From the IMG/VR virus record IMGVR_UViG_3300036851_000550, positions 1 through 64,000 of that record: 64,000 nucleotides of DNA; one strand, 5' to 3'. Under the pieces are notes generated by a model that made no database searches, had not been told where the DNA came from, and worked only from the letters and a program-made list of their open reading frames with translations. This DNA is from a virus. Made by a program: the position numbers and the translations under genes. This document shows, piece by piece, positions 1 through 8,095 of the stretch (the stretch's first letter is position 1; each line of letters starts with the position of its first letter).

Positions 1-28
1 GTCACGCCTTTTCTGAAGATCAAACTTC

Positions 29-53
29 TAGGGTGCCCCCCGGGGGTACCCTA
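29..53. repeat. GC-rich palindrome
   Basis: TAGGGT (29-34) and ACCCTA (48-53) flank a run of six C then five G, giving a near-perfect dyad of about 25 bp. The centre is too tight for a good RNA loop without opening several pairs, and no U-run follows. It could be an operator, or a terminator for a gene left of the window. Confidence 0.5.
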
Positions 54-70
54 TGGTCAACGATCATGCA

Positions 71-100
71 TGATCCACTAGTGATCCACATCTGATCCAC
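71..100. repeat. Three TGATCCAC direct repeats, 11-bp period
   Basis: Exact TGATCCAC copies lie at 71-78, 82-89 and 93-100. The 11-bp spacing puts them on one face of the helix. A further copy is at 445-452. This arrangement is typical of binding sites for a regulator, directly before the possible -10 element at 103-108. Confidence 0.55.
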
Positions 101-461
101 TTCATACTTAAAGATCATGGTGCACGTCACCCGTTTGGGGGTATGCCTAGGGGGGCACACTCCCCTATTCTATCAGTACAACAGAAAAGCAAGAGCAAGC
201 CCCAGGACCCGCGCACGCGGGGGGCAGCCAGGCACCACCCGCGCATGCGGGCAGGCCACCCGCCTCCCAGAAGTGACCAGCGTCAGTCCAGCCCCCATAA
301 CGCGACCGTCAGCTAGTGACGGACCGGCTTTCGCAAGAGCTGAGATTCATTTCGACCCCATGCGATCGCGGCACACCCTGAAGCGTCACAGCGCGGGTTA
401 AAGATCCAAAGCTTAGATGCAACATCCCTGCATTAAGGGATCGTGATCCACCCAGGTTAGT

Positions 462-527
462 GGATCATGGGCATGAGTTGACCAAGAAGTGGGGTCAAGA
501 TCATCGGTTCGAATCCGATCATGTCCA
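462..527 (+). ncRNA. tRNA-like three-way junction without D-arm
   Basis: The 3' part is a canonical TPsiC arm: ATCGG (503-507), loop TTCGAAT (508-514), CCGAT (515-519). It is followed by CATGTCC (520-526), which pairs with GGA-T-CATG (462-469) with one bulged T. A second hairpin, TTGACC (478-483) and GGTCAA (493-498), has a 9-base loop in place of a normal anticodon arm. The interior is about 8 bases too short for a D-arm, and there is no encoded CCA. It is therefore a decayed tRNA, an att-type tRNA 3' end or an RNA processing mimic, rather than a working tRNA. Confidence 0.4.
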
Positions 528-563
528 CTCACCCAAGATCCAACTCACTCGGCGGGAGTGATC

Positions 564-782
564 ATGAACAACACACTGAAGACGATCAAGGTTATCTGCA
601 AGATCATGATCGCCGTGCTGCGGCTGATCGTGCTCGTCATCGTGATCACGCTGTGGATCACCAACCTGCTGCCTAAGGGCAAGGGCCGGAGCCAATGCAA
701 GATCGCTCGCGCTCTGCGTGCCTGGGCACTCCACCAGGTCAAGCGCACGCTGCCCCGTTCCGTCGCGCACTACGTCCACTGA
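564..782 (+). CDS. Small membrane protein, first gene of the ribozyme operon
   Basis: 72 aa. I chose ATG 564 because it follows GGCGGGAGTGATC; a longer frame from 489 would cross the tRNA-like element. Residues 10-36 are strongly hydrophobic (one or two transmembrane passes), followed by a basic, cytosol-like tail rich in Lys and Arg. The function is unknown. It lies 16 bp before the next gene and, unlike most genes here, has no ribozyme after it. Confidence 0.7.
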   Translation: MNNTLKTIKVICKIMIAVLRLIVLVIVITLWITNLLPKGKGRSQCKIARALRAWALHQVKRTLPRSVAHYVH

Positions 783-798
783 TCATCAGGAGATCATC

Positions 799-1077
799 AT
801 GACCGCAACGATCGAGATCCGGAACATGGACAGCGCGTCCGTTACGTGGACGCTGCGACTTCGCGATCAGATCATGGAACTGGTTGATCATCGCGACCTG
901 CTCCCCGACGCGTGGGATGCAGCCAAGATCCTGAACGACAAGGCGATCAGCGCGCTGGTCGTGCGCCGGTACGACTTCGCAGAGCAGCTCTGCGAGTGGG
1001 CGCAGGAAGAGATCGACAAGGTCGCGAAGATCGCGGACGAGGTCGACCCGCTGGACTTCGACGATCTTCACTACTGA
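799..1077 (+). CDS. Hypothetical protein
   Basis: 92 aa, no family recognised. The start at 799 is set by CAGGAGATCATC just upstream. The sequence is soluble and mostly helical, with acidic residues concentrated near the C-terminus (EVDPLDFDDLHY). Its TGA stop (1075-1077) directly abuts the first base of hammerhead copy 1, so termination here would place a ribosome on the ribozyme. Confidence 0.75.
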   Translation: MTATIEIRNMDSASVTWTLRLRDQIMELVDHRDLLPDAWDAAKILNDKAISALVVRRYDFAEQLCEWAQEEIDKVAKIADEVDPLDFDDLHY

Positions 1078-1135
1078 GCCGAAACGCTGGCCTGGCCAGC
1101 GTCCACCGGAGTTGATCTACCGGTGCTGATGAGGC
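1078..1135 (+). ncRNA. Type II hammerhead ribozyme, copy 1
   Basis: Stem II is GCC (1078-1080) with GGC (1133-1135). GAAA is 1081-1084. Stem III is ACGCTGG paired with CCAGCGT (within 1084-1102). The cleavage triplet GTC ends at C1103. Stem I is CACCGG (1104-1109) with CCGGTG (1120-1125), a continuous 6-bp helix. The core CTGATGA is 1126-1132. GATC is in the stem I loop and again at 1137-1140. The order (stem II open, I and III closed) defines type II. Predicted cut: after 1103. Confidence 0.93.
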
Positions 1136-1191
1136 AGATCCACAGCCACTGAGGGAATGATCATCCAACGTCATCATCGGAGGGACCGATC

Positions 1192-1455
1192 ATGAACGCT
1201 GCTGCTCACTACGGCCCGGTGCAGAGCACGCCGCCCGTCGGCACGCTGGCCTACTACCACGGCACGAAGATCGACTACCACGGTGTGTGGGAGGTCGTCG
1301 GGACGCGCGCCGGTCGCACGGTGCTCGAACGTACGCGGCTGGACGGTCGCGAGATGTTGACCATCTCCGAGGGCAACCGGACGATCACCGTCCTGGCGGT
1401 CGAGGAAGAGGCCGAGCGGATGATCCACAACGTGGAGTCATTCCTCGGCGCATGA
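1192..1455 (+). CDS. Hypothetical protein, SH3-like N-terminus
   Basis: 87 aa, start fixed by GGAGGGACCGATC before ATG. The segment GTLAYYHGTKIDYHGVWEVV resembles the short beta-strand pattern of SH3/KOW-type small domains; this is a pattern impression only. It is followed by an acidic helix (VEEEAERM). It is flanked by hammerhead copies 1 and 2, so it should become a separate one-gene RNA. The TGA stop abuts copy 2. Confidence 0.75.
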   Translation: MNAAAHYGPVQSTPPVGTLAYYHGTKIDYHGVWEVVGTRAGRTVLERTRLDGREMLTISEGNRTITVLAVEEEAERMIHNVESFLGA

Positions 1456-1513
1456 GCCGAAACGCCCTGATCAGGGGCGTCCACCGGAGTTGATCTACCG
1501 GTGCTGATGAGGC
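1456..1513 (+). ncRNA. Type II hammerhead ribozyme, copy 2
   Basis: Stem II is GCC (1456-1458) with GGC (1511-1513). GAAA is 1459-1462. Stem III is ACGCCC (1462-1467) with GGGCGT (1475-1480), loop TGATCAG. Cut after C1481. Stem I is CACCGG (1482-1487) with CCGGTG (1498-1503). CTGATGA is 1504-1510. Stem I and its loop match copy 1 while stem III differs but still pairs, which is compensatory evidence. The flank after it (AGATCCACAGCCACTGAGGG) is also shared with copy 1. Confidence 0.93.
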
Positions 1514-1567
1514 AGATCCACAGCCACTGAGGGAATGATCACCAAACCTAGATCACCGGAGGGACCG

Positions 1568-2146
1568 ATGATCCCGACCACGGCCGACAACACCACACAT
1601 GATCGCTACGTCGCGAACATCCTGGCGACCTGGCAACGTGCCACGGCCGGGCAGATGGCCGATGGTCGATCTTGGTACCGACACGCAAATGATCTTGCGG
1701 ACATCATGTCCGACGGCAACGTGCGGGCCGGTGCAGGCGTGATCGCTGCTCTCTCGGCGAACAAGGCCTGGGAGATCAACATCCGCATCGCGGGCGAGGC
1801 GTTCGCGACCGGCACGCTCCGCGGCCACGTGCGCGACGCGCTGGCCAAGGCAGAGCGGATCATGATGGGTCAAAATCCACTCGTCGTGCTCCCGATCGAC
1901 AGCAAGACCCACAATTTCTACCGGTGCATCGTCGATCCCGACGACCCGGACCCGGTCGTGATCGACCGCCACGCGCACGACGTCGCTGTGGGCCGCCGGT
2001 ATGGGAACGAGGACCGCGGGCTGTCCAACAAGCGCCGTTACGCCACTCTCGCCCACGCGTACCGCGAGGCTGCCCGTCGGCTCGGCGAGCTGCCCAGCAC
2101 CGTGCAGGCCGTCACGTGGGTGGCATGGCGGGAGGGAGCCAAGTGA
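1568..2146 (+). CDS. Possible HhH-GPD-like (DUF7178-type) phage protein
   Basis: 192 aa. The start at 1568 has CCGGAGGGACCG in front; an upstream in-frame ATG at 1535 is too close to its GAGGGA. Visible blocks are GAGVIAALSANKAWEINIRI near residues 57-76, KTHNFYRC, and VIDRHAHDVAVGRRYG. They resemble an actinophage family I associate with a helix-hairpin-helix DNA glycosylase-like fold, in which the VDxH-type segment carries the acidic residue. Base excision or DNA binding is an inference; a fold search would settle it. It overlaps the next gene by GTGA. Confidence 0.75.
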   Translation: MIPTTADNTTHDRYVANILATWQRATAGQMADGRSWYRHANDLADIMSDGNVRAGAGVIAALSANKAWEINIRIAGEAFATGTLRGHVRDALAKAERIMMGQNPLVVLPIDSKTHNFYRCIVDPDDPDPVVIDRHAHDVAVGRRYGNEDRGLSNKRRYATLAHAYREAARRLGELPSTVQAVTWVAWREGAK

Positions 2147-2244
2147 TCGCCAGCGATGACCCCGGGTGGGTCTGGTGCCGCGAGTGCCACCAGTTGGTGC
2201 CGCTGGACACACGGGGCAACCCGTGGTGCGGGCACAAGCACTGA
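2143..2244 (+). CDS. 33-aa zinc-finger-like miniprotein
   Basis: GTG start overlapping the previous stop by 4 bases, with GGAGGG at 2131-2136 as ribosome binding site. The pattern CREC then WCGHKH at the C-terminus gives C-x2-C...C-x-H, enough for one zinc site. The gene is probably translated by coupling to the upstream protein. No family recognised. Hammerhead copy 3 begins 5 bases after its stop. Confidence 0.65.
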   Translation: MIASDDPGWVWCRECHQLVPLDTRGNPWCGHKH

Positions 2245-2249
2245 GATGA

Positions 2250-2313
2250 GCCGAAACGCCCTGGTGAGAGGCAGGGCGTCCGACCGGGACCGATCGCCCG
2301 GCGCTGATGAGGC
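2250..2313 (+). ncRNA. Type II hammerhead ribozyme, copy 3
   Basis: GCC (2250-2252) pairs with GGC (2311-2313). GAAA is 2253-2256. Stem III is ACGCCCTG (2256-2263) with CAGGGCGT (2272-2279). Cut after C2280. Stem I is CG, bulged A2283, CCGGG paired with CCCGG-CG (2297-2303). CTGATGA is 2304-2310. GATC in the loop is 2292-2295. The stop of the upstream gene is 5 bases away, yet TGA still sits directly before GCC (ATGAGCC), so the TGA is kept as part of the element. Confidence 0.93.
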
Positions 2314-2335
2314 AGATCAATCGGAGGGACCGATC

Positions 2336-2674
2336 ATGAACGAAGAGTTCGTCGCCGCGCTCACTGACGAGACGATCGACGCCGCGAGCGGTGCCGATCT
2401 TCGCAAGATGGCCACCGACGCTGGCCTGTCGCGGCACGACACGCACGAGAGCGTGCTCAGCGTCAACCTGCGGGCGGAGGTGATCAGCACCCCCGGCGCG
2501 CTGGCCGCCGTCGGCCAGGTCATCGAGGTGCTCGCCGCCGCGTACAAGGGCGCGGGATGTGACCCGGTGATCGACACCAGCTACGGCAGCTCGGCTGAGA
2601 TCCGCGTCTGGCAGGACGACAGCGGGGTCCGCCGGTCGCTCAAGTGGGCGCGGGAGCGCTCGATCAAGAACTGA
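2336..2674 (+). CDS. Hypothetical protein
   Basis: 112 aa. GGAGGGACCGATC precedes the ATG. No family recognised. The N-terminal two-thirds is helical; the end (SSAEIRVWQDDSGVRRSLKW) reads as beta strands. It forms a one-gene module between hammerhead copies 3 and 4, and its TGA abuts copy 4. Confidence 0.75.
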   Translation: MNEEFVAALTDETIDAASGADLRKMATDAGLSRHDTHESVLSVNLRAEVISTPGALAAVGQVIEVLAAAYKGAGCDPVIDTSYGSSAEIRVWQDDSGVRRSLKWARERSIKN

Positions 2675-2732
2675 GCCGAAACGCCCGGCAACGGGCGTCT
2701 GACCGGGAATGATCCCCCGGCGCTGATGAGGC
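2675..2732 (+). ncRNA. Type II hammerhead ribozyme, copy 4
   Basis: GCC (2675-2677) with GGC (2730-2732). GAAA is 2678-2681. Stem III is ACGCCCG (2681-2687) with CGGGCGT (2692-2698), closed by GCAA, a GNRA tetraloop. Cut after C2699. Stem I begins U2700-G2722 (wobble replacing C-G), then G-C, bulged A2702, CCGGG/CCCGG. CTGATGA is 2723-2729. The wobble change preserves pairing. Confidence 0.93.
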
Positions 2733-2753
2733 AGATCACGGAGGGAATCGATC

Positions 2754-2966
2754 ATGTACACGACCGTGACCGTCGAAATGGTCCGCAGGGACCGCTACCG
2801 GGTCAAGTTCTCGATCTTGCCTGGCCGGTCCTTCGGCGACTGGCCGTTCGCGGAAGTGATCCGTGATCTTCGAGTGGCGACGACGCTGTCCGGACTCGAC
2901 GCACGTGATCTTGTTCTGGAGGCCGCCGCGACCGGGAGCGCATCCCGGCAGACGACAACGGGATGA
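2754..2966 (+). CDS. Hypothetical protein
   Basis: 70 aa, start preceded by GGAGGGAATCGATC. The N-terminal half alternates charged and beta-type residues (VTVEMVRRDRYRVKFSI); the C-terminus is short and polar. No family recognised. There is no intact ribozyme after it, but its stop codon lies inside an apparent ribozyme scar. Confidence 0.7.
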   Translation: MYTTVTVEMVRRDRYRVKFSILPGRSFGDWPFAEVIRDLRVATTLSGLDARDLVLEAAATGSASRQTTTG

Positions 2967-2974
2967 GACAGATC
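2964..2974 (+). other. Probable hammerhead deletion scar
   Basis: TGAGACAGATC here matches the last part of the ribozyme element (TGAGGCAGATC) and is followed by the usual AAC..GGAGGGACC. In the element, TGAG occurs both at the 5' edge (TGAGCC) and in the core (GATGAGGC). Recombination between the two TGAG copies would remove stems III and I and leave exactly this. This is inference from sequence similarity. Confidence 0.5.
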
Positions 2975-2994
2975 AACACCGGAGGGACCCGATC

Positions 2995-3231
2995 ATGACC
3001 ACCGCAACCAAGCGCGCCACGGCGTCACAGCTCCGGAAGAAGATCGAAGCTCTCCGGGAGATCATGGAGAGCACCGAGGTTGAGGATCTTGAGACCTTCG
3101 CCTCGTGGGACGAGCGCGAGCGTGAGTGGCAGCGCTACACGGCCGAGGAGCACGCCGACGAGCTGTCTGAGCTGACCTTGAGCCTGATCGGCAGCATCCG
3201 TCAGTGGATCAATGAGGCGGAGGAGAGCTGA
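2995..3231 (+). CDS. Hypothetical coiled-coil protein
   Basis: 78 aa, highly charged and helical throughout, with Glu/Arg/Lys heptad-like spacing (QLRKKIEALREIMESTEVED). GGAGGGACCCGATC sets the start. It is probably oligomeric or a binding partner of another phage protein. It is co-transcribed with the next gene 2 bp downstream, and the two form one module ending at copy 5. Confidence 0.75.
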   Translation: MTTATKRATASQLRKKIEALREIMESTEVEDLETFASWDEREREWQRYTAEEHADELSELTLSLIGSIRQWINEAEES

Positions 3232-3233
3232 TC

Positions 3234-3449
3234 ATGGCAGCGAAGCTGATCAAGGGCGAGTTCGAGTACGGAGACAAGGTCCACAACGAGGCCTACGGCT
3301 ACTACGGCACGGTGCTCCGCATGGAGCGCCAGCACCGGACCGATTGGGTGGTCGTGCTGTTCGAGGGCACGTGCTACAGCCGCCAGGTCTACCCGGATTC
3401 GATCAAGAAGGTGACCGAGCGACCCGCGCGCGTCAACCCGTACTGCTGA
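3234..3449 (+). CDS. Hypothetical SH3/KOW-like small protein
   Basis: 71 aa. The pattern FEYGDKVHNEAYGYYGTV followed by DWVVVLFEGTCYSRQVYPDS is typical of short SH3-like beta barrels that bind nucleic acid or protein; the assignment is by pattern only. GGCGGAGGAGAGC precedes ATG. Its TGA abuts hammerhead copy 5. Confidence 0.75.
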   Translation: MAAKLIKGEFEYGDKVHNEAYGYYGTVLRMERQHRTDWVVVLFEGTCYSRQVYPDSIKKVTERPARVNPYC

Positions 3450-3509
3450 GCCGAAACGCCCTGGTGACAGGGCGTCCGACCGGGACCGATCGCCCGGCGC
3501 TGATGAGGC
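3450..3509 (+). ncRNA. Type II hammerhead ribozyme, copy 5
   Basis: GCC (3450-3452) with GGC (3507-3509). GAAA is 3453-3456. Stem III is ACGCCCTG (3456-3463) with CAGGGCGT (3468-3475), closed by GTGA, a GNRA tetraloop. Cut after C3476. Stem I is CG, bulged A3479, CCGGG with CCCGG-CG. CTGATGA is 3500-3506. The loop carries GATC and a second GATC follows stem II. Confidence 0.94.
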
Positions 3510-3537
3510 AGATCAACCTCTGGAGGGACAAGATCGT

Positions 3538-4623
3538 ATGTCTCAGGAGACCGCCACCTGGCTGAACACCATGACCCTGATCGGCAACACGGCCAAGCGC
3601 GGACACGCGTGGCACTACCGGGCCGAGGAGCAGGGCGACGAGTCGAACCACTACGAGTTCTCGATCCCCGTGGACGACGTGAAGCGTCGGCTCTTCGGAT
3701 GGCAGGCCGAGCCCCGCCGCGTCGCGGTCGAGTTCCCGGCCACGTTCGAGACCATGACCCACCTCGGGGACGACGGCCAGCCGCTGCGCTGGGTCGTCCA
3801 GACGCGGGAGCAGGCCATCGCCGCGAACGACACCTACGACCAGGCCGAGCCCGACGTGCTGGGCCAGTTCAAGACCGGCTACAAGATCCACGACTACGGC
3901 CAGTGGCTGGTCGACAACGTGGGGACGATCTTGGACGACGACCTCGCGATCAGCTCGGCTGGCCTGCTGCGCAACCGCGCCCAGGCGTGGGTCGAGGTCA
4001 GCGTGCCCGACACGATCAAGACTCCGGAGGGCGTCGAGTTCCGGCCGAACCTGCTGGCCGCGACGTCGCTGGACGGGTCGATCGCGACCACCTACAGCCG
4101 CACCGTGCAGCTCACGGTGTGCGACAACACGATGGCGGTCGCCCTGTCCGAGCGTGGGCAGAAGATCAAGGTCCGGCACTCGTCGCAGAGCCTGAACCGG
4201 GTCGGCGACGTGCGCGAGGCACTGAAGATCGTGCACACCGCGGCAGCTGAGTTCACCGCTCAGGTGGCGCACCTGGTGGCCACGCCGGTGCAGCCGCACC
4301 AGTTCGAGCGGCTCGTCCAGGTGATCTTCCCGATCAAGGCCGACGCTGGCAAGCGCAGCGTGACCATGGCCGAGGACAAGCGCGCACAGCTCTTCCAGCT
4401 GTACCGCTACGACGAGCGCGTGGCCCCGTGGAGCGGGACCGCGTTCGGTGCCGTGCAGGCGTTCAACACCTGGCGCCACCACGTGCAGAACGGTCTCCCC
4501 GGTGACACCGAGGAGCAGAAGCGGGTGGCTCGCGCGCTGCGCAACGCCGGCCGTGCCGTGACCGGCGAGAACGAGACCAGTGACCTGCAGGTGACCGCAG
4601 CGCTGGCGACGATCCTCGCCTGA
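3538..4623 (+). CDS. DUF932 / phage-plasmid-like protein (TIGR03299 type)
   Basis: 361 aa, the largest gene of the ribozyme operon. TGGAGGGACAAGATCGT precedes ATG. The layout fits the DUF932 family: a start with a thiol-free WLNTMTLIGNTAKRG block, a central region with TTYSRTVQLTVCDNTM, KIKVRHSS, then a helical C-terminal half. DUF932 proteins are common in phages and plasmids of Gram-positive bacteria; the molecular role is not established. It forms a single-gene module between copies 5 and 6 and is probably abundant early. Confidence 0.85.
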   Translation: MSQETATWLNTMTLIGNTAKRGHAWHYRAEEQGDESNHYEFSIPVDDVKRRLFGWQAEPRRVAVEFPATFETMTHLGDDGQPLRWVVQTREQAIAANDTYDQAEPDVLGQFKTGYKIHDYGQWLVDNVGTILDDDLAISSAGLLRNRAQAWVEVSVPDTIKTPEGVEFRPNLLAATSLDGSIATTYSRTVQLTVCDNTMAVALSERGQKIKVRHSSQSLNRVGDVREALKIVHTAAAEFTAQVAHLVATPVQPHQFERLVQVIFPIKADAGKRSVTMAEDKRAQLFQLYRYDERVAPWSGTAFGAVQAFNTWRHHVQNGLPGDTEEQKRVARALRNAGRAVTGENETSDLQVTAALATILA

Positions 4624-4630
4624 TCCACAA

Positions 4631-4692
4631 GCCGAAACGCCCCCGGAGGGAGGGGCGTCCGACCCGGACTGATCGCCGGGCGCTGATGAGGC
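4631..4692 (+). ncRNA. Type II hammerhead ribozyme, copy 6
   Basis: GCC (4631-4633) with GGC (4690-4692). GAAA is 4634-4637. Stem III is ACGCCCC (4637-4643) with GGGGCGT (4652-4658). Cut after C4659. Stem I is CG, bulged A4662, CCCGG (4663-4667) with CCGGG-CG (4676-4682). CTGATGA is 4683-4689. The stem I change from CCGGG/CCCGG to CCCGG/CCGGG is a clear double compensatory substitution. It lies 7 bases after the upstream stop. Confidence 0.94.
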
Positions 4693-4720
4693 AGATCTGA
4701 TCAACCGGAGGGACCCGGAC

Positions 4721-4828
4721 ATGAGCGAGAAGGAGCGCAGGGACGCGCGGTGCTGCCGCGACGTGGCCAGGGACATGGCCGCGGAGCAGATCAGCGCCGA
4801 CGTCGAACGAGAGGTGAACGGATCGTGA
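4721..4828 (+). CDS. 35-aa charged miniprotein
   Basis: ATG 4721 follows CCGGAGGGACCCGGAC, the same leader as its neighbours, so translation is likely. It is very charged (Arg, Glu, Asp) with adjacent cysteines (CC at 11-12). It overlaps the next gene by GTGA. No function is recognised; it may mainly couple translation of the membrane gene that follows. Confidence 0.6.
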   Translation: MSEKERRDARCCRDVARDMAAEQISADVEREVNGS

Positions 4829-5064
4829 TCGCCTGGCTGGTGGCGCACGCGGAGCACATCGCGGGCGCTGCCCTGCTCGGCTTCCTCGCGCTCTACGCGG
4901 TGAGCAATGCGCGCCTGCTGGTGCGCCGCCTGCTGGAGGACTGGCGCGACGAGGTGAAGCAGCACAGCGACCGATGGGAAGAGCTGGCACCGCTCGCAGT
5001 CGAGCGGGTCCAAGCTGCCCTGATCAACGTCGCCGGCCTGCTCGATCGAGGAGCACGCCGATGA
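4825..5064 (+). CDS. Small single-pass membrane protein
   Basis: 79 aa with GTG start overlapping the previous stop. Residues 10-28 are hydrophobic (AGAALLGFLALYAV), then a charged amphipathic helix. The N-terminus is short and the tail is likely cytoplasmic. Function unknown. The next gene overlaps by 4 bases (ATGA). Confidence 0.7.
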   Translation: MIAWLVAHAEHIAGAALLGFLALYAVSNARLLVRRLLEDWRDEVKQHSDRWEELAPLAVERVQAALINVAGLLDRGARR

Positions 5065-5291
5065 CCGACACGCAGACGATCACGTACCTGCATCCGCCCC
5101 GGCTGGAGCGGATCCCGGCGCCCCGCTACACCGCGGCGGACGTCCTCGGCCTCCCGTTCAACGGCCAACGACCCACCTACAGCGGCGGGCTGAAGGCGTA
5201 CGCGAAAGACCGACGAGCCCACCGGGCCTACCGCGCCTGGCGGGACCAGTTCCCCCGGGCGCGCAAGCGTCGCAAGCGCTCGGTGCTATGA
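5061..5291 (+). CDS. Hypothetical basic protein
   Basis: 76 aa. The N-terminus is Pro/Tyr-rich (YLHPPRLERIPAPRY) and the C-terminus is strongly basic (RARKRRKRS), suggesting nucleic-acid contact. It is the last gene of a three-gene module. Its TGA abuts hammerhead copy 7. No family recognised. Confidence 0.72.
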   Translation: MTDTQTITYLHPPRLERIPAPRYTAADVLGLPFNGQRPTYSGGLKAYAKDRRAHRAYRAWRDQFPRARKRRKRSVL

Positions 5292-5350
5292 GCCGAAACG
5301 CGCCCATGTGGCGCGTCCGACCGGGGGTGATCTCCCGGCGCTGATGAGGC
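5292..5350 (+). ncRNA. Type II hammerhead ribozyme, copy 7
   Basis: GCC (5292-5294) with GGC (5348-5350). GAAA is 5295-5298. Stem III is ACGCGCC (5298-5304) with GGCGCGT (5310-5316), a distinct but fully paired helix. Cut after C5317. Stem I is CG, bulged A5320, CCGGG with CCCGG-CG (5334-5340). CTGATGA is 5341-5347. GATC is present in the loop and after stem II. Confidence 0.94.
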
Positions 5351-5368
5351 AGATCAACCGGAGGGACC

Positions 5369-6028
5369 ATGAAGAAGGAGCAGTTGATCAAGCGGCTGGC
5401 ACAGCTCGCCGTGAAGTGGGAGCAGGCCAGCGAGCGGCTCGCCGTCGACGAGCCCGACGACATGGACACCGTCGAGGACGACACCATGTCGGCGATCTAC
5501 GGCGAGGCCGCGGGCGAGCTGCGCAAGCTGCTCACCGACGAGCGCACCGCACGCACCGGGTTCGACACGCTCTGGGAGCCAGTGCAGGCCACCGAGAACG
5601 CGACCCTGCTGCTTGCCCCCGGCGAGGAGTACGCCAACGGCACCACGAAGGTCCCCGACGACAACCGCACGTGGGGCATGGTGATCGGCGACCCGGAGAA
5701 GGTCGCGCTGGTGCTGCTCGGCACGCGGGACGAGATCGTGCAGCAGCTCCGCGACGCGCAGCGGGAGATCGACAACTCGTACGGCGCCGAGCACGAGAAC
5801 GCGCTCCACGAGGAGTACGAGGGCCGGTGCCCGGCGTGCCAGGCGCACGGGCCGACGCAGATGCTCGACGCGTACCCCGGTCCGCACTCCGACGCCGTGG
5901 CCGCCGCGCTCGGCCGCGACCTGGCGAAGCACCTCCGCGAGCACGGCGACGCGGAAGCTGAGCCGCTGCCGAAGTGGCGCGCTGGGGAGCGACAGCTCAA
6001 TCCCGCCGATCTCCGCAAGAAGCGGTGA
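5369..6028 (+). CDS. Hypothetical protein with CPAC zinc-type motif
   Basis: 219 aa. CCGGAGGGACC precedes ATG. The N-terminal half is helical and acidic; the centre has the segment RTWGMVIGDPEKVALVLLG; the C-terminal half has RCPACQAHGP, which could supply part of a metal site with later His residues. No family recognised. It is followed 3 bp later by the gene at 6032; both lie between copies 7 and 8. Confidence 0.78.
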   Translation: MKKEQLIKRLAQLAVKWEQASERLAVDEPDDMDTVEDDTMSAIYGEAAGELRKLLTDERTARTGFDTLWEPVQATENATLLLAPGEEYANGTTKVPDDNRTWGMVIGDPEKVALVLLGTRDEIVQQLRDAQREIDNSYGAEHENALHEEYEGRCPACQAHGPTQMLDAYPGPHSDAVAAALGRDLAKHLREHGDAEAEPLPKWRAGERQLNPADLRKKR

Positions 6029-6031
6029 CCG

Positions 6032-6292
6032 ATGGACCGCGCCGTCGCCATCGTCCTGGGCTACGCCGCCGCAAAGGCGGAGCGGGCTCCCACCCTGGAG
6101 CTGGCCATCCGAGCGGGGTGGGCAGCCTGCCACGTGGACCGGGACCTGATCGGCCCGGTGTTCGCCGCGTGGAACGCGTCCGAGGGTCGAAGTGGCGACG
6201 TGCCTGAGCTGGGCGGGGTACTGCGCAGGCGGTACCGGAAGCAGGGACCGGAGGCGATCGCCGCGAGCCTGCGGCGAGCCGCTGAAACATGA
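6032..6292 (+). CDS. Hypothetical protein
   Basis: 86 aa, mostly helical, rich in Ala and Arg. The start lies 3 bp after the previous stop with GCGGTGACC in front, a modest ribosome binding site, so translational coupling is likely. No recognisable domain. Its TGA abuts hammerhead copy 8. Confidence 0.7.
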   Translation: MDRAVAIVLGYAAAKAERAPTLELAIRAGWAACHVDRDLIGPVFAAWNASEGRSGDVPELGGVLRRRYRKQGPEAIAASLRRAAET

Positions 6293-6351
6293 GCCGAAAC
6301 GCCTGCATAAGCGGGCGTCCACTGGGAACGATCTCCCAGTGCTGATGAGGC
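6293..6351 (+). ncRNA. Type II hammerhead ribozyme, copy 8
   Basis: GCC (6293-6295) with GGC (6349-6351). GAAA is 6296-6299. Stem III is ACGCCTG (6299-6305) with CGGGCGT (6312-6318), including one U-G pair. Cut after C6319. Stem I is CACTGGG (6320-6326) with CCCAGTG (6335-6341): here the helix is continuous and the bulged A of copies 3-7 is paired. CTGATGA is 6342-6348. Confidence 0.93.
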
Positions 6352-6373
6352 AGATCGACATCGGAGGGACTTA

Positions 6374-6559
6374 ATGATCATTGTCAAGCTCGAAGGCAGC
6401 GAGCTGCTTGCGTTCCATGACCTGCTCACCGAGCTGCACGAGGCGCTCGAAGCCGACGAGGTCCACACGCTGTGGGTCGCCGTCGACGACGAGGGCGTCA
6501 AGCTCAAGGTCAACCGGTCCACCTGGTCGCCCGGTCGGGGTGAGCGCGAGGACAGCTGA
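6374..6559 (+). CDS. Hypothetical small protein
   Basis: 61 aa. CGGAGGGACTTA precedes ATG. An acidic helix (DLLTELHEALEADEV) is followed by beta-type residues (LWVAVDDEGVKLKV). No family recognised. It overlaps the next gene by one base (TGATG) and heads a three-gene module. Confidence 0.72.
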   Translation: MIIVKLEGSELLAFHDLLTELHEALEADEVHTLWVAVDDEGVKLKVNRSTWSPGRGEREDS

Positions 6560-6783
6560 TGTCTGGCCACAGGCGGGACCCGGACGAGCGTGCGATGCAG
6601 GATCTGCAGAGGCGCGCCGCCCGGGAGCAGGCGCTCGACAAGCGGCAGCGTGAGCGGACCGACGAGGCCCTGCTCACGCTGGCCGAGCTCGTGGCGGCGC
6701 ACGGCTGCCAGCCCGAGCGGGTCGCCCTGCGCACGCTGCGCGTGGAGATCCATCGACTACGACGGAAGGTAGAGACAGCATGA
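6559..6783 (+). CDS. Hypothetical coiled-coil protein
   Basis: 74 aa, almost wholly helical and charged, with a leading basic stretch (SGHRRDPDERAMQDLQRRAA) and a C-terminal LRVEIHRLRRKVE heptad-like segment. It may bind DNA or RNA, or dimerise; nothing more can be said. It overlaps the next gene by ATGA. Confidence 0.7.
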   Translation: MSGHRRDPDERAMQDLQRRAAREQALDKRQRERTDEALLTLAELVAAHGCQPERVALRTLRVEIHRLRRKVETA

Positions 6784-6977
6784 CCATGGACGAGGCCGAG
6801 CAGGCCTACCGCAGCGGCACCACGGTGACCTTCACCGACGGCGCGGACGACAACCCAGCGATCGCCGTGCAACGGCGCGGCCGGATCACCGGGTGTGGAG
6901 TGATCTACGCCTTCGTGCGAACCGCGGACAGCTCCCGGGACACGGTCGTCCCGGTGGGGGACCTGCGCCTGGCATGA
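6780..6977 (+). CDS. Hypothetical small beta protein
   Basis: 65 aa. The pattern GTTVTFTDGADDNPAIAVQR, GRITGCGVIYAFVRT, DTVVPVGDLRL suggests a small beta barrel. A second in-frame ATG lies at codon 3. It is the last gene before copy 9; its TGA (6975-6977) abuts the ribozyme. Confidence 0.7.
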   Translation: MTMDEAEQAYRSGTTVTFTDGADDNPAIAVQRRGRITGCGVIYAFVRTADSSRDTVVPVGDLRLA

Positions 6978-7035
6978 GCCGAAACGCCCTCACGTTGGGC
7001 GTCCGCCGGAACCGATCTACCGGCGCTGAGGAGGC
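6978..7035 (+). ncRNA. Type II hammerhead ribozyme, copy 9
   Basis: GCC (6978-6980) with GGC (7033-7035). GAAA is 6981-6984. Stem III is ACGCCC (6984-6989) with GGGCGT (6997-7002). Cut after C7003. Stem I is CGCCGG (7004-7009) with CCGGCG (7020-7025), continuous. The core reads CTGAGGA (7026-7032); the changed base is position 7, the one core position known to tolerate any base. GATC occurs in the loop and after stem II. Confidence 0.92.
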
Positions 7036-7052
7036 AGATCACTGGAGGGGCA

Positions 7053-7223
7053 TTGAACAGCTGTGCACTGGCCGAGCTCGCGCCGGTCGGATGGAGTCCG
7101 TGCATGCCGGGGTGTGACCCCGTCAGGTGCTCGGACTGCACCGACCAGGGCAGGCGCGTTGTCGGCGATCAACCGACCCGCGAGCGCTTGGCGTTATTGC
7201 AGGGCGAGCAGAGCACCCCGTAG
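7053..7223 (+). CDS. Putative 56-aa Cys-rich protein, TTG start
   Basis: Downstream of copy 9 the usual GGAGGGG is followed 2 bases later by TTG, which opens a 56-codon frame. It contains CMPGCDPVRCSDC, a tight cluster of four cysteines suited to zinc. The 3' end overlaps the convergent HNH gene by 55 bases. Support comes from the leader and the cysteines; the rare start codon and the overlap leave doubt. Confidence 0.45.
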   Translation: MNSCALAELAPVGWSPCMPGCDPVRCSDCTDQGRRVVGDQPTRERLALLQGEQSTP

Positions 7224-7504
7224 TTCTCGGGGTCATACGCAAGATCCGGACGTACTGATCGCGGGATCTTATGGTCCCCGGTCAGTGCGCCCGGCGGCAC
7301 TTCGTGGGCTGGCCTCTGCCAGCCCGGACAGACCCACCCGTGCTCACGCACCCACGCATAGATCACCCGCGCGGTGATCGCTCTGTGCTGGGCGCCCAGG
7401 CCACGCTCCGTGGTCGTGCGCTCAGGACCTGATCGGAGCCTGTGCTCGGGGCACCGGGTGCGCTTCGCTGGCCGCCCGCATATCAAGCACGGCCGCAGAG
7501 CCAT
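7169..7504 (-). CDS. HNH endonuclease
   Basis: 111 aa. An N-terminal zinc knuckle (CLICGRPAKRTRCPEH) is followed by RGLGAQHRAITARVIYAWVR, then the HNH core: LTGDHKIPRSV, PENYGVLCSPCNNAKRS. The DH, N and C-x2-C...N arrangement is that of phage HNH nucleases, which nick DNA and often act in homing or packaging. It is oriented against the ribozyme operon and far from the terminase genes, which favours a free-standing mobile nuclease. Confidence 0.85.
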   Translation of the reverse strand: MALRPCLICGRPAKRTRCPEHRLRSGPERTTTERGLGAQHRAITARVIYAWVREHGWVCPGWQRPAHEVPPGALTGDHKIPRSVRPDLAYDPENYGVLCSPCNNAKRSRVG

Positions 7505-7860: not shown

Positions 7861-8095
7861 CGTCTGGACCCCATCATCTTGCAACCATGACCGTCGCGTC
7901 GACCAAGACACCACGCGCCAGAGTGAACAGTGACACGTTCGCCGCAGGTCAGCAAGCCGGGCACTGGTATAGTCCGGGCTAGCACCTCCGGTGACGGTCC
8001 CGCATCCAGCGGGGCACGAGGAGGGGGCCTGTGCATCGGTCGTTGCCAGACGGCGCCTTCATGTGATCTTGGGGTATCTGGGCTGGGCTGGATAT
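7861..8095. other. Intergenic region, no gene seen
   Basis: About 235 bases between the hairpin at 7860 and the convergent hairpin at 8096. No frame here has a believable ribosome binding site. TATAGT at 7968-7973 could be a -10 element for rightward transcription but has no good -35. I see nothing else supportable. Confidence 0.5.

Follow-up and report, generated by a model that had tools for sequence, protein, structure and literature searches.

Nine type II hammerheads in an operon of small genes

We analysed a 64,000-nucleotide stretch of viral DNA (hereafter the window; positions 1–64,000 of the 71,075-bp IMG/VR virus record IMGVR_UViG_3300036851_000550), which contains an operon of about 20 small genes on one strand with type II hammerhead ribozymes between them. 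A cmscan search of the window against all of Rfam 15 returned nine matches to the type II hammerhead family RF02276 (gathering score 37 bits), all on the plus strand and scoring 45.9–59.5 bits (E-values 8.9e-10 to 3.3e-6). No other Rfam family was returned from the window, and the whole 71,075-bp record held no RF02276 copies beyond these nine. The search confirmed the nine elements proposed in a first-pass annotation made from the letters alone: all exceed the family threshold, the model starts (1077, 1455, 2249, 2674, 3449, 4630, 5291, 6292, and 6977) lie one base 5' of the coordinates given there, and the nine cleavage positions were identical on recomputation. The elements are as follows.

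Hammerhead 1: 1078–1140 (including the pseudoknot tail to 1140), plus strand; predicted cut after 1103; upstream stop codon ends at 1077; 50.5 bits.
Hammerhead 2: 1456–1518, plus strand; predicted cut after 1481; stop ends at 1455; 53.3 bits; 3' half the same as in copy 1.
Hammerhead 3: 2250–2318, plus strand; predicted cut after 2280; stop ends at 2244; 47.0 bits.
Hammerhead 4: 2675–2737, plus strand; predicted cut after 2699; stop ends at 2674; 49.2 bits.
Hammerhead 5: 3450–3514, plus strand; predicted cut after 3476; stop ends at 3449; before the DUF932 gene; 48.7 bits.
Hammerhead 6: 4631–4697, plus strand; predicted cut after 4659; stop ends at 4623; 51.3 bits.
Hammerhead 7: 5292–5355, plus strand; predicted cut after 5317; stop ends at 5291; 59.5 bits; 6-bp pseudoknot UGAUCU/AGAUCA.
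Hammerhead 8: 6293–6356, plus strand; predicted cut after 6319; stop ends at 6292; 52.2 bits; 6-bp pseudoknot CGAUCU/AGAUCG.
Hammerhead 9: 6978–7040, plus strand; predicted cut after 7003; stop ends at 6977; 45.9 bits.

The CUGANGA and GAAA core and the GUC cleavage triplet are intact in all nine copies; hammerhead 9 reads CUGAGGA, a change that falls at the free position N7. The minimum free energy structure of every copy is a hammerhead with loop-closed stems I and III and an open stem II, in agreement with the annotated architecture. The GAUC of loop I pairs in each copy with a GAUC in the 3' tail (AGAUC right after stem II), forming a pseudoknot of 4–6 Watson-Crick pairs, which is a known feature of type II hammerheads (PMC3088659). 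The first-pass annotation had mentioned neither this pseudoknot nor the stop-codon abutment, the tRNA-like element, and the hammerhead remnant described below. Stem II (GCC/GGC) is invariant, and the differences among copies are compensatory and lie in stems III and I: 99.4% of cells are paired, five pairs are altered on both sides, and none of 500 shuffles scored as high. Copies 1–2 and 3–5 are near-duplicates. A tolerant structural motif finder, which does not require the pseudoknot, recovered all nine copies and gave no hits in 3.39 Mb of reversed sequence, which excludes a chance origin of the matches. As known here from sequence and fold, these ribozymes are predicted to cleave themselves.

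Placement between genes

Every hammerhead is intercistronic, sense to the genes, and located between a stop codon and the Shine-Dalgarno sequence of the next gene. The stop codon (TGA) abuts stem II directly at seven of the nine junctions, with gaps of 5 and 7 nt at the other two, and the start codon follows stem II by 17–28 nt at seven junctions and by 54–56 nt at the first two. Coupled gene pairs, which overlap or lie less than 20 nt apart, have no hammerhead, while nine of the ten wider gaps in the operon hold one and the tenth holds a remnant. Canonical sigma-70 promoters or terminators did not occur above chance within the operon, and only two of its approximately 20 genes encode a named domain. 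The operon and its other features are listed below.

564–7223, plus strand: operon of about 20 small genes on one strand, delimited by gene calls and junctions.
1568–2146, plus strand: gene for a DUF7178 protein (PF23802, E-value 4.6e-66).
3538–4623, plus strand: DUF932 (phrog_1221) gene, flanked on both sides by hammerheads (PF06067, E-value 8.7e-37; phrog_1221, E-value 2.2e-81).
2966–2995, plus strand: hammerhead 3'-half remnant in a gap, GATGAGACAGATCAACACCGGAGGGACC; 5' half missing; no RF02276 match.
469–527, plus strand: tRNA-like element immediately ahead of the first gene (RF00005, 26.3 bits).

The remnant is predicted to stay uncut because it lacks the 5' half; this junction, with the 3' part alone and the usual Shine-Dalgarno sequence, is in effect a natural loss. 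GATC, the sequence of the ribozyme pseudoknot, is strongly over-represented at positions 1–7000 of the window (84 occurrences in the first 3.5 kb, 11.6 expected; two- to four-fold over the rest of the genome) and is also frequent just before start codons.

Related elements in metagenomic viruses

Viral contigs and genomes were scanned by pattern and then re-searched with the structural motif finder, which yielded 237 elements at 155 loci. A stop codon lies within −3 to +12 nt of stem II in 190 of the 228 elements from outside the window, as compared with 8.6% of random positions near elements. While stem pairing in this set is partly a product of the finder's construction, the pseudoknot is formed with at least four Watson-Crick pairs in 126 of 237 elements, against approximately 35 expected when tails were swapped between loci. 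Its two strands change in step from locus to locus (GAUC/GAUC, GACC/GGUC, GAACU/AGUUC, GGCU/AGCC). The nearest neighbour of an element came from the same record in 37 of 76 cases (1.3 expected); arrays thus grow by copying within a genome, since copies most resemble others of the same genome. One record, G009, carries ten copies. The idea that DUF932 generally accompanies hammerhead arrays was rejected, as only four of the 155 loci, in addition to the G009 phage, had a DUF932-like open reading frame (ORF). Other genes neighbouring hammerheads were not common to loci beyond related phages, and no close DNA relative of the window was found among annotated phages.

Hammerhead arrays in cultured Streptomyces phages

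A dense array of this kind proved not to be unique to the window. At least eleven cultured Streptomyces phages of the Arquatrovirinae carry 8–11 RF02276 matches each, all in one (right-hand) operon: Alvy, Thestral, TrvxScott, and Janus (n = 11 each), Sentinel, Zainub, and phiScoe1 (n = 10 each), Andris, Spernnie, and R4 (n = 9 each), and Tefunt (n = 8). The Alvy array was reached through a BLAST hit. We found no prior report of Arquatrovirinae hammerhead arrays in the literature searched, although such papers may still exist. As in the window, the elements have a pseudoknot and punctuate a single operon of small genes; unlike in the window, the genes are different, stem II is mostly GGC/GCC, and the spacing to the stop codon is wider, usually 5–20 nt and sometimes 40–76 nt. 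At the junction before the gene starting GTGACCCCGAAG, different genera have kept a hammerhead in which stem III, stem I, and the pseudoknot vary in concert, as with loop GGCU and tail AGCC or loop GGCA and tail UGCC. Tiny annotated ORFs overlie ribozymes in Alvy (gp84; locus L191, 2902–2976) and R4 (gp60.1, gp67.1, and gp75.1; locus L203, 11763–11846, 14126–14218, and 17074–17175) and are probably not genes.

tRNA-like minihelices at corresponding junctions in sister genera

Six phages of the sister genera Likavirus and Camvirus (Izzy, Danzina, Sujidade, Werner, Amela, and Kamino) have no hammerheads, and their scanned regions gave no Rfam matches. The gaps of their corresponding operon instead hold a 43-nt tRNA-like minihelix, which consists of an acceptor stem and a T-arm without D and anticodon arms. 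Its parts follow in the order of five acceptor-like pairs, an 11-nt linker, a T-arm with the canonical GGTTCGAG loop, the closing strand, and ACT; the resulting stack of 5+6 bp with a canonical T-loop is like the acceptor/T-arm stack (~12 bp) of tRNA-like RNase P substrates. The helices covary strongly, with six pairs altered on both sides and a covariation value of 0.437 as compared with 0.104 in shuffled alignments (none of 500 as high), though sequence and stem served to collect the set, so that some pairing is by construction. A covariance model of the minihelix detected 6–10 copies per genome in the six phages at E-values of 3e-7 or better and no copy in the eleven hammerhead phages. It likewise gave no significant match in the window record or the metagenomic hammerhead loci, and one minihelix stem type, sought by IUPAC pattern in viral contigs, was not found there. 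The early operons with minihelix arrays were recorded as loci L211–L216. Gaps of a Likavirus operon (locus L206, 1790–1909, 3543–3667, and 5671–5754) also repeat a promoter-like motif (TTGCAC, ~18 nt, TACCTTCGCA), which occurs with or without the minihelix.

The closest Rfam relative of the minihelix is mascRNA/menRNA, with a score under the cut-off of that family. mascRNA is a tRNA-like RNA released by ribonuclease (RNase) P and RNase Z. The Likavirus and Camvirus minihelices are candidates for RNase P/Z punctuation signals and may constitute a new RNA family.

Hammerheads and minihelices occur upstream of homologous genes. Among downstream gene families grouped by single-linkage BLAST, one has a hammerhead upstream in 11 of 11 phages and a minihelix upstream in six of six, and in a second the counts are eight phages with a hammerhead and six of six with a minihelix; at least two further families, one of them of OCR-like antirestriction genes, likewise show both devices upstream. 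Some coincidence of this kind is expected because both devices fill most operon gaps. The exchange amounts to one or a few replacements, since the Streptomyces phages form few clades. Nevertheless, that two unrelated devices for RNA processing have apparently replaced one another at the same junctions suggests that the hammerheads punctuate mRNA, and it is the best evidence yet for that role.

tRNA-like elements in the window and in phages with DUF932 homologues

The window element at 469–527 combines a 7-bp acceptor stem (GGGCATG/CATGTCC), one middle arm, and a T-arm (ATCGG-TTCGAAT-CCGAT) followed by ACT, and its stack of 7+5 bp with a canonical T-loop is likewise of the acceptor/T-arm type. 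It was the sole RF00005 match in a scan of the whole record (E-value 9e-5; 0.0012 in a local scan), with 26.3 bits at a gathering score of 29. We rejected it as a complete tRNA, given this score below the cut-off, the absence of a D-arm, and the lack of any tRNA call by ARAGORN.

Homologues of the window DUF932 protein were found in Rhodococcus, Gordonia, Mycobacterium, and Streptomyces phages with up to approximately 48% identity. One of these, Mycobacterium phage Fowlmouth, has no hammerheads and carries eleven tRNA-like elements and one complete tRNA on one strand at 33.7–43.9 kb; each element has an 11–12-bp stack, and none occurs elsewhere in the genome. The Fowlmouth elements (locus L148; MH834613, 33772–43923) lie in intergenic gaps or close to them, and most have AACGGTTTTC-type linkers. 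In the prophage-like record L140, a DUF7178-like gene is followed downstream by hammerheads at 7473 and 7921, the one at 7921 just before a DUF932 gene, with stem II and pseudoknot sequences that differ; the record also has a tRNA-like element at 5695. Mixed arrays therefore exist, as both L140 and the window, with its nine hammerheads and the element at 469–527, hold both devices. Neither device was detected in the Rhodococcus and Gordonia phages with DUF932. Successive 75–85-nt gaps of Gordonia phage Guey18 (locus L146, 5696–6872) contain a long hairpin before an GAGAGGAAAG ribosome site; these hairpins are not hammerheads, have no Rfam match, and are possibly a third punctuation device.

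Putative processing of the operon RNA

The hammerhead array probably cuts one operon RNA into separate short mRNAs. The operon (564–7223), whose early transcription is an assumption, would be transcribed as a single RNA in which every ribozyme folds in the space from a module's stop codon to the next Shine-Dalgarno sequence and cleaves itself directly 3' of GUC. On the upstream mRNA this would leave a 25–36-nt 3' end that carries the stem III hairpin as a cap and terminates in a 2',3'-cyclic phosphate; the downstream mRNA would have a 5'-OH and begin with the stem I hairpin, 49–88 nt ahead of its start codon. Ten short mRNAs of one to three genes each would result, with structured and probably nuclease-resistant ends that could give the modules separate lifetimes, a presumable benefit to the phage. 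We favour mRNA punctuation because it explains the intercistronic sites, the sense orientation, the absence from coupled gene pairs, the conservation at fixed junctions, and the replacement by an unrelated processing signal. We also lean, with less assurance, towards the broader view that many actinophages have a long operon punctuated by dense arrays of a cleavage signal that is exchangeable in evolution, being hammerheads in some genera, minihelices cut by RNase P/Z in sister genera, and both in the window phage; if so, punctuation of this type would be a general strategy of DNA phages and the long-sought function of their hammerheads.

Several points weigh against this interpretation. Four of 18 consensus hammerheads were inactive in the study of Perreault et al. 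(PMC3088659), and a ribosome at the stop codon or the Shine-Dalgarno sequence could block hammerhead folding. We infer cutting of the window RNA from the DNA and not from RNA of this phage, and the same applies to cutting of the minihelices by host RNase P/Z. The Streptomyces comparison represents few phylogenetic events and not 17 independent ones. Furthermore, punctuation is not essential to DUF932 genes, as the Rhodococcus and Gordonia homologues show neither device.

The placement of the ribozymes would also fit a translation-gated switch, in which a terminating or initiating ribosome unfolds stem II and the pseudoknot so that only untranslated junctions are cut and mRNA fate is coupled to translation. 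The stop codon abutting stem II and the start codon 17–28 nt after it, each at seven of nine window junctions, speak for such a switch, as does the frequent stop abutment in other phages. However, the wider stop spacing in Streptomyces phages indicates that tight coupling is not general, abutment could arise through tight packing alone, and a tRNA-like device at the same junction is not expected to sense translation alike; we regard the switch as unlikely. Still less probable is that the hammerheads are dispersed repeats, spread by duplication within genomes or acting as recombination linkers of gene cassettes, with cleavage of no benefit. The excess of same-record nearest neighbours, the near-duplicate window copies, and the truncated remnant are in line with such spread, but compensatory changes have preserved the functional pairs and the pseudoknot at fixed junctions in different genera, the elements all lie between cistrons in the orientation of the genes, and an unrelated element takes the place of the hammerhead upstream of homologous genes. 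Hammerhead cleavage is reversible, and since stem II is the same in all nine copies, any half could pair with any other, so that cut modules, with the 3' half of one hammerhead at the 5' end and the 5' half of the following one at the 3' end, might religate into circular or recombined mRNAs. This is very improbable, as a 3-bp stem II holds the halves weakly, the record (which may be incomplete) contains no RtcB ligase or AAA_33-family kinase, Perreault et al. sought spliced or circular products and found none (PMC3088659), and a tRNA-like replacement would yield no circles.

Since 2011, it has been an open question what bacterial and phage hammerheads do (PMC3088659, PMC6155905, PMC10085705). 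The arrays are a fixed trait of cultured phages, among them R4 on Streptomyces coelicolor, which makes this question directly testable in laboratory strains, and the sister phages with an unrelated device upstream of homologous genes provide a natural swap experiment. If mRNA punctuation holds true, some phages would obtain numerous short, stable mRNAs from a single transcript with no need for host endonucleases, and the elements would be compact, ready-made insulators for engineered operons.

Comparison with known systems

The first-pass annotation had already read the array as cutting an operon RNA. The identity, placement, and cut sites that it gave stand, and processing is the best-supported role; its statement that no such operon had been described does not hold, as clustered phage hammerheads and the idea of processing were reported by Perreault et al. 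in 2011 (PMC3088659). In that work, multiple hammerheads often flanked single genes or short gene blocks in prophages and processing of long phage RNAs was proposed; tandem arrays were cleaved in vitro, and a triple array in E. coli (PMC3088659). The arrays of Azorhizobium, Clostridium scindens, and Agrobacterium resemble that of the window in having several sense hammerheads that flank phage genes and in the type II fold with a loop I–tail pseudoknot. They were tested on RNAs of approximately 2 kb (one triple), whereas the window has nine copies, all type II, at nearly every uncoupled junction. Beyond that study, we quantified the placement relative to stop and start codons and found an alternative device at junctions of homologous genes.

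A single hammerhead variant lies just before the start codon of an early gene, encoding a helicase, in haloviruses HF1/HF2, where a mapped RNA 5' end is within three nt of the cleavage site (PMC3088659); unlike in the window, the virus is archaeal and there is no array. Retrozymes and circular-RNA elements also release unit RNAs by means of tandem hammerheads, but these are type I/III, eukaryotic, and form retrotransposed circles, and no such machinery was seen in the window record. Mitochondrial tRNA punctuation and mascRNA-type signals are structured cut marks between coding units, as the Likavirus, Camvirus, and Fowlmouth elements and the window element at 469–527 would be. They differ from the systems described here in that hammerheads cut themselves without a host enzyme and in that the minihelices, whose processing is predicted, are without D and anticodon arms. 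The kind of array has thus been known since 2011, and what appears to be new is its density, its fixed presence in a well-studied group of cultured phages, and its exchange with tRNA-like arrays.

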